A stretch of DNA of 21,352 bases, taken from assembly GCA_007131945.1 (NCBI GenBank), contig SLPP01000217.1:1-21352 (forward strand), read 5' to 3'. The DNA is from Paracoccaceae bacterium. GTDB taxonomy: Bacteria; Pseudomonadota; Alphaproteobacteria; Rhodobacterales; Rhodobacteraceae. Positions 16,053-18,201 of this stretch are shown in pieces. A program made the position numbers and the translations under genes. Each line of letters starts with the position of its first letter. Positions within the stretch are counted from its first letter, which is position 1. Below the pieces are notes generated by a model that did not search any database, was not told the DNA's origin, and was given only the letters and a program-made list of their open reading frames with translations.

Positions 16053-16517
16053 TCAGGCGCTCCGCGTGTTCTTCTTGTTCATCGCCCGCAGGTCCAGCAC
16101 CTCGGGCTGCTGCGCCTCGTGCGGGTGCTCGGAACCGGCATAGACGCGCAGGTTCGTCAGCTGCGTGCGCGCCAGACGGTTGCCCGGAAGCATGCGCTGC
16201 ACCGCCTTCATCACCACCCGCTCAGGATGCTTTCCTTCGAGGATCTGCCGCGCCGTGCGACTCTTGATCCCGCCGGGATAGCCGGTGTGCCAGAAATAAG
16301 TCTTGTCGTCGCGTTTCTTGCCCGTCATCTGCACCTTGTCGGCATTGATGACGATGACATTGTCACCCATGTCCATATGGGGCGTGAACGTCGCCTTGTG
16401 CTTGCCGCGCAGGCGATTGGCGATGATCGAGGCGAGACGACCCAGAACCACGCCTTCAGCGTCGATCAGGATCCATTTCTTCTCGATATCCGCCGGTTTC
16501 GCGGTATAGGTCTTCAT
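16053..16517 (-). CDS. rplM: 50S ribosomal protein L13
   Basis: The 154-aa protein begins [20 protein letters not shown]. It has [54 protein letters not shown] and [20 protein letters not shown], all standard L13 signatures. E. coli L13 is 142 aa; the extra residues are mostly C-terminal. L13 is an early-assembly 23S rRNA-binding protein. It is first gene of the rplM-rpsI operon and reads away from the tRNA-Leu gene, with which it shares a 211-bp upstream region. A good promoter lies about 58 bp upstream. Confidence 0.98.
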
Positions 16518-16603: not shown

Positions 16604-16690
16604 GGGGTGTTTCCGCCGTAAATCACTGCTTTTTCAATGTCATATAATTTAGGTATTATTTTACCCCATTTGTTTCCGTCCGCTTACTGC
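16604..16690. other. A/T-rich segment between divergent rplM and tRNA-Leu
   Basis: Positions 16615-16680 are strongly A/T-rich, including a TATAAT at 16640-16645, in sharp contrast to the flanking genes. It lies upstream of both the ribosomal-protein and tRNA promoters, where it could act as UP-element DNA for both. No -35 partner for the TATAAT was found, so it is not called a promoter. Confidence 0.4.
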
Positions 16691-16719
16691 TTGTGCTCTA
16701 CTCGGCAAGTCGCTATTCC
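16691..16719 (+). promoter_or_regulatory. tRNA-Leu promoter
   Basis: TTGTGC (16691-16696), 17-bp spacer, TATTCC (16714-16719). The predicted start near 16726 is only a few bases before the tRNA 5' end, as is usual for stable RNA genes. Confidence 0.5.
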
Positions 16720-16728
16720 CTGCGGCGG

Positions 16729-17075
16729 GCGGACATGGCGGAACTGGCAGACGCGACGGACTTCGACCCGCGCAAGTGCGCGAAAAGGAGTGCCCTGTCG
16801 GAAACGGCGGGAGCAGAACGGCTCAAATTCGGGGAACCCTCACGGGTGGTGCCGGTGGTGATCCCGAGCCAAGCCCGGGGCTTAGATGCCTTGGGAAGGT
16901 GTAGAGACTAGACGGGCCGCAGCTACAGCCGCGCATGCGCGGCCAGGCTGAAGGGATAGTCCGGACCACGAACGCCCCTGCGGACGATCCGGGCGGGGCG
17001 GCGGCGGAAGCCGAAGTGGTGCGAAAATCCGTTTCCCGAAAGGGAGTCCGGGTTCGATCCCCGGTGTCCGCACCA
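16729..17075 (+). tRNA. trnL-UAA: tRNA-Leu(UAA) interrupted by a group I intron
   Basis: Exon 1 is 16729-16763 and exon 2 is 17024-17075, giving an 87-nt spliced class II tRNA with encoded CCA. The acceptor stem GCGGACA pairs perfectly with TGTCCGC (17065-17071). The D arm GGCGGAACTGGCAGACGC is the leucine type. The anticodon stem ACGGA (16756-16760) pairs with TCCGT (17028-17032). The split loop CTT + AAAA gives CUUAAAA, anticodon UAA. The long variable arm is CCC-GAAA-GGG and the T arm is CCGGG-TTCGATC-CCCGG. Every stem is intact, so the gene should be functional if spliced. It decodes UUA, a rare codon in such a GC-rich genome (and UUG by wobble). It converges on the SseB-family gene, 7 bp away. 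Confidence 0.95.
16764..17023 (+). ncRNA. Self-splicing group I intron (IC3-like) in tRNA-Leu
   Basis: A 260-nt intron between U34 and A35. The 5' exon ends in U and the intron ends in G, as group I requires. P1 forms between ACTTC (16760-16764) and GGAGT (16787-16791), with the splice-site U16763 opposite G16788 as the expected U-G wobble. Core elements closely resemble the Azoarcus tRNA-Ile and Anabaena tRNA-Leu introns: AAATTCGGGGAA, CCCGAGCCAAGC, AAGGTGTAGAGACTAGACGG and GGGATAGTCC. P7 pairs GACTA (16906-16910) with TAGTC (16957-16961). P8 is capped by GCCGCGCATGCGCGGC (16928-16943). No homing endonuclease gene is present. Splicing uses exogenous guanosine (family knowledge). The subgroup is judged by motif resemblance, not by a covariance model. 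Confidence 0.93.
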
Positions 17076-17082
17076 ACACTGG

Positions 17083-17880
17083 CTACCGCAGCCGCGGTGG
17101 CCGCGCCGGATCGAGCCCGACATTGGGACCGGCCAGTGACTCCGATGCGGCGAAGGGTGCAGGCGACAGTTCATGCCCGACCGCGGCGATACGCGCCATT
17201 GCCTCGGGCGGCGGGAAAACGACATCGAGCACGCTGTCCTCCAGCCCGGAAAACTCGAGCGCTTCAGCGACCGCGCGAGCGAGCGCCGGGCGCGCCGGGT
17301 CACCGACTCCGGCCAGCGCCAGAACGTGTCCATGCCCCCTGCCTTGCCAGCGCACCCCGGCGAGCACCGCCGCCGCAAGCCCCGGCACGCCGGAAAGGCG
17401 CCGCTCCAGCGCCGGCACCAACAGCGCCAGTGCCGCCTCGGGCAGCGTGACCGGGCCGAACGCCTCGGGCACCGCCTCGGCCTCCTCGGGCGCTGCCGCG
17501 GCAAGCGTCGCGCCGAGCCAGTCGAGTGCCTCGGGCGGCAATAGCGCGGCATGCTCAGCATCGGCGTTGACGATCAGCGAAAGGGCTTCGCCTGCCTCGG
17601 CCAGCATCGCGACCACCAGCCGGCCTGGCAGCGCGGCATAGGCCACCGCCTGACCGGCGAACGCCGCCATCCGAGCCTCGCTGTCGAAAACCAACACCGC
17701 ACGCATTCCCTTCAGGTCGACGACATGCGGCGTCAAGCGGTCGCCGCGCGCCTCTTCGACCAACAGGACGAACAGTTCGGAATTGATCAGTTCGGCATGG
17801 AACCGCAAGCGGAGTTCCACCTCTTCGGGGCGCGCGTGCATCTGCCTAAGCACGGCATCAAGAGTCGAGGCTTCAACCAT
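17083..17880 (-). CDS. SseB-family protein
   Basis: The 265-aa protein has an N-terminal SseB domain: RLRFHAELINSELFVLLVEEA, then VLVFDSEARMAAFAGQAVAYAALPGRLVVAML and LLPPEALDWL. The variable C-terminal half (GPVTLPEAALALLVPALERRL) is typical of longer SseB-like proteins. Function is poorly defined; E. coli SseB has been linked to serine sensitivity. No signal peptide or membrane segment is seen. ATG 17880 (MVEASTLDAVLRQMHARPEE) has GGTGGG just upstream. Longer starts at 17907 or 17901 lack a ribosome-binding site. The stop codon sits within a short stem-loop (17083-17100) and readthrough would be antisense to tRNA-Leu. Confidence 0.75.
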   Translation of the reverse strand: MVEASTLDAVLRQMHARPEEVELRLRFHAELINSELFVLLVEEARGDRLTPHVVDLKGMRAVLVFDSEARMAAFAGQAVAYAALPGRLVVAMLAEAGEALSLIVNADAEHAALLPPEALDWLGATLAAAAPEEAEAVPEAFGPVTLPEAALALLVPALERRLSGVPGLAAAVLAGVRWQGRGHGHVLALAGVGDPARPALARAVAEALEFSGLEDSVLDVVFPPPEAMARIAAVGHELSPAPFAASESLAGPNVGLDPARPPRLR

Positions 17881-18201
17881 AGCGCCCACCGCATGGACCA
17901 TCGGCAAGAAAACTACAACCGATCCCGCAGCACGACCCCGTCCCTAGCCATCTCACGCACTGTCCCGCTGCCCCCAGTACGAGAAAAAAAAGACCGGCGT
18001 CGCATGAAGCGGACCCACGGAGAAACCGCCTCCTTATTGTAACCTATCGCGCGAAACACCCGCACTGCCGAGCGAAGGAGGCCGGAACCCCGGTTTCGTT
18101 GTCGTTGCATGAGCAGAACCGCGTGACGCTTGCCCGATTTTGCGAGTTGCGCCATCTGAACGACCGAGAGCGCCCAGTGCACCGCAGCAAAGGAGACCGC
18201 C
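17881..18201. other. Divergent gap between SseB gene and sulfur operon
   Basis: About 320 bp with no supported gene. It contains an A8 run at 17984-17991, a 12-codon frame at 18004-18042 (MKRTHGETASLL) of no recognisable type, and a short CCGG-rich inverted stretch near 18080. Promoters for both flanking genes must lie here. TTGCCC near 18128 is a possible -35 for the sulfur operon, but its -10 is poor. Confidence 0.4.

Follow-up and report, generated by a model that had tools for sequence, protein, structure and literature searches.

A group I intron in an alphaproteobacterial tRNA-Leu(UAA) gene and the probable replacement of the native intron-free gene

The intron of tRNA-Leu(UAA) has become the textbook ancient intron, based on its identical place in cyanobacteria and plastids (excerpt of PMC4033280). 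What does it mean, then, when the same tRNA is interrupted in an alphaproteobacterium? The stretch of DNA analyzed here, hereafter called the window (21,352 nucleotides, from a Paracoccaceae bacterium), contains such a gene. Its structure, its place in the genus and the kinship of its intron are considered in turn.

The interrupted gene and its intron

Positions 16729-17075 of the window (347 bases) correspond to a tRNA-Leu(UAA) gene in two halves (Table 1). Run without its intron option, ARAGORN found no tRNA anywhere in the window and, with introns allowed, it placed the gene at 16729-17075 while misjudging the splice site. Cutting out exactly 16764-17023 yields, by ARAGORN on the spliced sequence, a canonical 87-nt tRNA-Leu(UAA) whose stems pair and whose CCA is encoded. 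The first-pass annotation, according to which the halves fold after removal of 260 nt between U34 and A35, is thus upheld, as are the U–G splice-site pair and the terminal G that it had read (U16763·G16788 and G17023), at a junction that fits the spliced fold. By eye, the tRNA is preceded in two congeners, G012 and G008, by the same promoter-like layout as in the window (there TTGTGC, 16 nt, CTATGN); the element at 16691..16718 is absent from the list given by a consensus promoter scan.

Table 1. Features of the intron-bearing tRNA-Leu(UAA) locus, in window coordinates.
Feature	Position	Strand	Basis
S9 gene, beside the L13 gene	15556-16050		
Ribosomal protein L13 gene, left flank of the new locus	16053..16517	-	Pfam, synteny
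Promoter-like TTGTGC, 16 nt, CTATTC, directly 5' of the tRNA	16691..16718	+	by eye; weak evidence
5' exon of tRNA-Leu(UAA), through U34, ending ..GGACUU	16729..16763	+	ARAGORN on spliced sequence
P1: exon ACUU (16760-16763) with guide GAGU (16788-16791), U16763·G16788 at the splice site	16760..16791	+	read from sequence
Group I intron, 260 nt, terminal G at 17023	16764..17023	+	Rfam match, spliced fold, model R2
P2, GAAA loop (16793-16800 with 16805-16811)	16793..16811	+	consensus fold, 7 introns
Catalytic core (P3-P8 with P7)	16814..16970	+	spanned by models R1 and R2
P3 (16819-16824 with 16914-16919), two-sided changes in 4 of 6 pairs	16819..16919	+	7-intron alignment
P4 (16829-16834 with 16862-16867), invariant among the 7	16829..16867	+	7-intron alignment
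P7, guanosine site: GACUA (16906-16910) with UAGUC (16957-16961)	16906..16961	+	7-intron alignment
3' exon of tRNA-Leu(UAA), A35 to the encoded CCA	17024..17075	+	ARAGORN on spliced sequence
SseB-domain gene, right flank of the new locus	17083..17907	-	Pfam

At the level of sequence, the insert is confirmed as a group I intron by its core, its P7 guanosine site, the U·G pair and the terminal G. The first-pass annotation had pointed to Rfam Intron_gpI as a check: the family does align to 16772-16972 (E 5.5e-5), but its 27.4 bits fall short of the gathering score, which is 50, so that at the default threshold the window has no match and an E-value threshold is needed. Model R2 gives 133 bits (E 2.1e-29) on the window, its sole match in the 21 kb up to E 1. 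It was built from 86 matches (80 named genome loci, one plasmid, one phage record), and its training set is free of the window and of the intron-bearing congeners G008 and G012. The R2 alignment was fitted to the structure of R1, a model that includes the window and whose score on it is therefore circular.

Two alignments, A1 and A2, gather seven related introns from BLAST, the window's among them. In the seven-sequence alignment, 97.1% of the cells of P3, P4, P5, P6, P8 and the pseudoknotted P7 are paired, where shuffles average 85.0% and slid structures lie at 29-48% (at most 47.5%), and two-sided changes occur in 18 of the 41 pairs, the shuffle mean being 7.2 pairs. The last pair of P7 is A-U, G-C or U-A among relatives, the other four of its five pairs being invariant. 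The R2 score and these compensatory changes, in P3 and P7, bear out the group I core with P7 pairing claimed earlier. The fold of the gene has a z of -3.1, an equally good fold being reached by 1 of 100 shuffles. Inspection by eye showed an extra hairpin in the P1 loop, of which G012 and G008 have other forms, and no convincing P10 pairing of the guide with the 3' exon.

IC3 introns are compact introns devoid of P5abc, related to the Anabaena Leu and Azoarcus Ile introns. The P5(a-d) regions have been described as missing from this subclass (excerpt of PMC11835236). With 260 nt, a short P5 and a core alignable with cyanobacterial Leu and betaproteobacterial Ile introns, the window's intron would be, from its compactness and its kin, IC3-like.

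In group I chemistry, P1 pairs the exon with the guide, a guanosine held in P7 cuts the 5' site and the exons are joined. Here, the precursor is predicted to remove its IC3-like intron of 260 nt by itself: the P7-bound guanosine would attack the 5' splice site marked by the U·G pair, the freed U34 would attack after the terminal G, and U34 would be joined to A35. The spliced tRNA, once charged, would be the only detected UUA reader in the genome.

No intact second tRNA-Leu(UAA) was detected in the genome of the window (92% complete, 417 contigs), in which other tRNAs were missed too. The congener G012, rated 100% complete, has no intact tRNA-Leu(UAA) among its 36 tRNA matches over the cut-off, the Leu anticodons found being CAA, UAG, CAG and GAG; a 37th match, which scores too low to pass, corresponds to the 3' part of the split gene. 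This tRNA-family search, which is not exhaustive, returned no Asn, Ile or Tyr tRNA either. The pattern ACTTAAAATCNG is an incomplete test for an intact tRNA-Leu(UAA): with one match examined per genome, 10 of 32 intron-free genomes yielded an intact gene. The case for absence is therefore built on the comparison within the genus and on the tRNA-family searches, in which some tRNAs are missed as well. In 35 of the 36 other genomes in which the family and class searches gave a Leu intron (G274 left out), none of the 15 pattern matches is an intact tRNA, which is suggestive only. The dependence of UUA reading on a ribozyme, as first proposed, is therefore in line with the lack of any intact copy seen, but searches that are not exhaustive fall short of proving that absence; UUA reading probably hangs on the intron-bearing gene. 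As UUA represents 2 of the 532 Leu codons in the 14 presumed reading frames of the window, slow splicing would be cheap. Genomes can also wrongly seem to be without a UUA reader, because ARAGORN in its intron-less mode missed the gene and tRNAscan-SE was not designed for such introns (excerpt of PMC8450103).

Probably foreign exons at a new locus in the genus

Among the 18 genomes of the genus, three carry the intron: that of the window (G000), G012 and G008. Twelve of the 15 intron-free congeners possess one intact, intron-free tRNA-Leu(UAA) gene located away from the L13 gene (the pattern has 13 matches in these 15 genomes, one of them not a tRNA), and the three congeners with neither intron nor intact gene are 85, 64 and 70% complete. 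The native-type tRNA-Leu(UAA) pattern is absent from all three carriers; in genomes at least 90% complete, it was found in 10/10 intron-free ones and in 0/2 carriers. The native genes are of the GGCCGC.. or GGCCCC.. type and share 55-59 of 87 positions with the exons of the window (63-68%). These exons are closest to intron-bearing alphaproteobacterial genes (best identity outside the genus, 87%), and the 19 nearest rows, in a comparison that took in 22 intron-free genes, are all intron-bearing.

In the carriers, the intron-bearing gene has the L13 gene on one side and the SseB-domain gene on the other. The intron-free congeners with which this arrangement was compared have a relative of the SseB-domain gene directly beside the L13 gene, no tRNA separating them, and no tRNA was found at the L13 loci of the 13 other congeners for which an L13 gene was found. 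Three congeners aligned directly show an empty site in the L13 spacer, with no remnant recognised. The native locus has the order BKACE, TetR, tRNA, acyl-CoA synthetase-like gene in G002, and the same in G004; in G000, G012 and G008 its left part is kept through BKACE and synteny ends right after. The L13 protein of the window is 93-94% identical to that of the two other carriers and 78-90% to the rest, identities which would fit a single event in the common ancestor of the carriers. A block, TAGGTATTATTTTACCCCA, lies upstream of the L13 gene at 16650-16668 of the window and has similar counterparts in G008, G002, G001 and G011 and a weaker one in G012.

We consider that the locus encodes a working, self-splicing tRNA-Leu(UAA) and that the whole gene was acquired with its intron, the native intron-free gene being lost (probability of about 0.8). 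Replacement of the entire gene is favored because the exons have so little in common with the native ones, the locus is new and the native gene seems to be missing in the carriers. An ancestor of the three species would have received the complete unit, foreign exons and intron together, in the spacer that separates the L13 gene from the SseB-domain gene, and would have lost its native gene. The genus would thereby be a neat example of one tRNA gene replaced in full, in which the native, the empty and the occupied site can all be seen.

The same presence and absence pattern, taken alone, would be produced if the ancestor of the genus had carried two tRNA-Leu(UAA) genes, most species then losing the intron-bearing copy and three species the native copy. 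We give this scenario a small chance, roughly one in eight: it calls for additional losses, none of the congeners was observed to possess both genes, and in three relatives the spacer can be aligned right through the point of insertion. Alternatively, the gene might be the genus's own, the intron alone having entered the resident tRNA-Leu(UAA) by homing or reverse splicing. Introns with HNH-like ORFs (L323 and L291) indicate that homing into the site may occur elsewhere, but 28-32 of the 87 exon positions differ from the native genes, the locus of the carriers is not the native one, and the window's intron contains no homing endonuclease ORF (longest open stretch, 66 codons), all of which makes this route highly improbable.

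Kinship of the intron and the cyanobacterial question

The seven cyanobacterial Leu introns classified interrupt the tRNA at the same nucleotide, U34/A35, and the first-pass statement that the intron has the tRNA and position of its cyanobacterial counterparts is therefore correct; the plastid tRNA-Leu(UAA) intron shares this site. Cyanobacterial and plastid introns also resemble that of the window in their compact core, an alike P7-P3 strand and the U·G pair. In contrast, the cyanobacterial Leu cores are at most 59% identical to that of the window (median 57%), the lowest of the groups compared, they form a separate clade, and the exons are 67-71% identical. Core identity to the window is at most 65% for Ile(CAU) introns, 73% for phage Leu introns and 74% for Arg(CCU) introns; alphaproteobacterial Leu introns have a median of 75% and a best value outside the genus of 82%, and an intron from an unassigned proteobacterial MAG (L263) reaches 83%. 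Among the three carrier species, it is 85-87%.

For phylogeny, 5 of 259 aligned matches were dropped for N runs or shortness, and the remaining 254 were reduced to 209 tree rows without partial, odd, second-copy, tRNA-less viral and duplicate viral matches, and then to 166 by taking out near-copies and four long rows. In the 166-row core tree, whose bootstrap had not settled and whose alignment of 155-158 columns is too short to settle deep order, cyanobacterial Leu introns group together (100/100), with fMet introns nearby. Those of alphaproteobacterial tRNA-Leu are intermingled with Arg(CCU) and Thr introns; a supported set of 48 rows (99/95) mixes the Leu and Arg(CCU) introns found in this class. 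The trio of the window, G012 and G008 is itself a clade (100/97), which lies outside that set. Nearly all Ile(CAU) introns fall in one clade.

Approximately unbiased (AU) tests were run on 68 of the 166 rows, drawn at random with quotas and leaving out the group 'other', for clades picked after the 166-row tree was seen. A clade of alphaproteobacterial and cyanobacterial Leu introns was rejected (p 0.0169), as was one of all Leu introns (p 0.00586). Cyanobacterial Leu with fMet introns (p 0.316) was not rejected, nor were alphaproteobacterial Leu introns alone (p 0.0761) or all alphaproteobacterial introns (p 0.0695). The clade of the window trio with cyanobacterial Leu introns was not rejected either (p 0.468), a result that runs against our reading. 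Based on a core identity of at most 59% and on the AU p of 0.017, the window's intron is probably not of the cyanobacterial Leu lineage. The shared site had been thought to bear on whether the intron is ancient or transferred: the site is indeed the same, but it does not entail a common intron lineage (p 0.017 for alphaproteobacterial and cyanobacterial Leu introns as one clade), and exons and locus suggest that the whole gene was transferred.

An ancient Leu(UAA) intron inherited vertically, common to cyanobacteria, plastids and this lineage and lost in most alphaproteobacteria, would account for the same tRNA and nucleotide in the seven cyanobacterial loci and would accommodate the trio clade that the AU test retains. 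This reading is set against the separate and fully supported cyanobacterial clade, the low core identity, the rejection of both wider Leu clades (p 0.017 and p 0.006) and the presence of the intron in just three of the 18 congeners, and we regard it as a shade less probable still than homing into a resident gene. Kindred introns occupy this site in alphaproteobacteria, Bacteroidota, an Acidobacteriota MAG and phages, so that an identical site is weak evidence of common descent. That the gene would be a dead pseudogene with a decaying intron is very improbable, although a decayed copy in G044 shows that decay occurs, since its exon stems are paired, its core is kept in three species and none of these carriers showed a second reader of UUA.

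Besides the cyanobacterial introns, other known systems come close. Alphaproteobacterial tRNA-Arg(CCU) introns (Agrobacterium; BbgpI of Bartonella) are of the same kindred as the window's intron but lie after the anticodon CCU (36/37), in another tRNA, with cores at most 74% identical. Among them, BbgpI has been shown to splice in vivo and in vitro (excerpt of PMC7717549). Betaproteobacterial tRNA-Ile(CAU) introns of the Azoarcus type are likewise small group I introns of the anticodon loop with an alike P7-P3 strand; they differ in being located at 36/37 and in core identity (at most 61% in bacteria and 65% in a viral contig). ARAGORN labels their tRNA Met(CAT), and Ile(CAU) is our own reading. 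In the gammaproteobacterial Beggiatoa and Thiomargarita, putative group I introns have been described in tRNA-Leu(UAA) and tRNA-Arg(UCU), their structure and type being left undetermined in that account (excerpt of PMC4853749); likened by description alone, they represent Leu(UAA) genes interrupted outside cyanobacteria. We found no prior report of a Leu(UAA) intron in Alphaproteobacteria in the open-licence literature. Since such introns have already been reported as putative outside cyanobacteria, the interest lies in the replacement history and in the breadth of carriers.

Related introns in genomes, phages and plasmids

The R1 core was found in 3/18 genomes of the genus, in 27/295 genomes of the family, sampled at nearly one per genus, and in 49/385 genomes of the class, the window's genome being counted each time; the family and class figures are lower bounds, obtained with strict filters and few candidates scored per genome. 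When the core matches of the window, the congeners and the family and class genomes are pooled (85 in all), the host was called tRNA-Leu(UAA), at 34/35, in 39 cases, followed by Arg(CCU) (12), Lys (11), Thr (10), Leu(CAA) (4) and Arg(UCU) (2), with no host tRNA in 7. These tallies may lean towards known tRNA/site pairs, which the classifier prefers; it superseded a first version with ambiguous junctions and required an exon T and an intron G, so that for the relatives the U·G pair and terminal G are assumptions. A wider pattern scan of genomes gave at least 119 matches, 80 of which were taken into the set; in this wider set, plasmid L252 included, 34 of the 83 kept matches are in tRNA-Leu(UAA). 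The hosts include Rhodovulum steppense, Falsigemmobacter faecalis, Bradyrhizobium lablabi and Sphingomonas yantingensis, Carnimonas nigrificans (Gammaproteobacteria), three Bacteroidota, one Acidobacteriota, one Bacilli MAG, one Vulcanimicrobiota and seven cyanobacteria. The case is thus not an isolated one, the site being shared by many alphaproteobacteria, other phyla and phages.

Sister introns were observed in alphaproteobacterial tRNA-Lys(UUU/CUU), Thr(GGU/CGU/UGU) and Leu(CAA) genes (L078, L087, L092, L104, L115, L117, L119 and kin), sites which are not named for Alphaproteobacteria in the portions of the literature examined. Introns in tRNA-fMet (L269, L277 and L290, from Nitrospirota, Omnitrophota and Actinomycetota MAGs) are placed just as the one in an Oscillatoria genome (L279). 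Genome G044 contains, in addition to an intact Leu(UAA) intron, a decayed second copy with a piece of the 3' exon (L011). HNH endonuclease-like ORFs occur in the introns of a Bacilli MAG (L323, 609-1151) and a Chloroflexi MAG (L291, 1233-1664), the former above and the latter below the Pfam cut-off; the flanks of both look Leu(UAA)-like by eye, and the classifier named no tRNA. Two BLAST matches were rejected as kindred introns: L009 (G041) is an intron-free Leu(CAA) gene, and L010 (G035) has no tRNA there.

In viruses, an exact 20-base core pattern is present in at least 120 IMG/VR contigs, 80 of which (L132-L211) form the viral set, with 86 R1 matches, near-duplicates included. Forty-two of these 86 matches were called tRNA-Leu(UAA) at 34/35, and 25 have no recognised tRNA, some of which may sit in protein genes. 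Introns in this set were called in Leu(UAA), Arg(UCU), Lys, Glu, Ser, Asn and other tRNAs. Contig L164 codes for relatives of RIIA, RIIB and a clamp loader, and seven of the eight phage loci scanned, from the 80 contigs, contain further tRNA genes (up to 11). According to a 2014 review, all phage introns then known were in protein genes, despite the many phage tRNA genes (excerpt of PMC3984707).

A complete intron-bearing tRNA-Leu(UAA) gene is also found on the Citrobacter freundii plasmid pCTX-M3 (L252, 2960-3260), where no feature is annotated. It lies less than 1 kb from the aminoglycoside-resistance gene aac(3)-IId and beside an AAA-ATPase gene, which we take to be tmrB. The 301-base piece matches 1,280 of 72,556 plasmid records, 1,257 of them over at least 80% of its length and 1,277 with at least 99% identity in the matched part, the gene itself having been read in pCTX-M3 alone. 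The pCTX-M3 core groups with alphaproteobacterial ones in the 166-row tree (99/92), and the exons also look alphaproteobacterial, possibly a trace of the origin of that segment.

More broadly, we lean slightly towards a picture in which intron-bearing tRNA-Leu(UAA) genes would move as whole genes, phage tRNA arrays and plasmids being among the carriers, and would displace resident ones; the U34/A35 site would have been filled repeatedly by different introns of a single kindred, with no part played by the lineage of cyanobacteria and plastids. Recipients would come to depend on a foreign ribozyme for UUA, a codon that their genes hardly use.

In the Gordonia phage Daredevil (L253, record 41895-42054), an unannotated tRNA-Lys(UUU) gene with a group I intron is located near the integrase gene; its core groups with Microbacterium and Tsukamurella introns (100/90).
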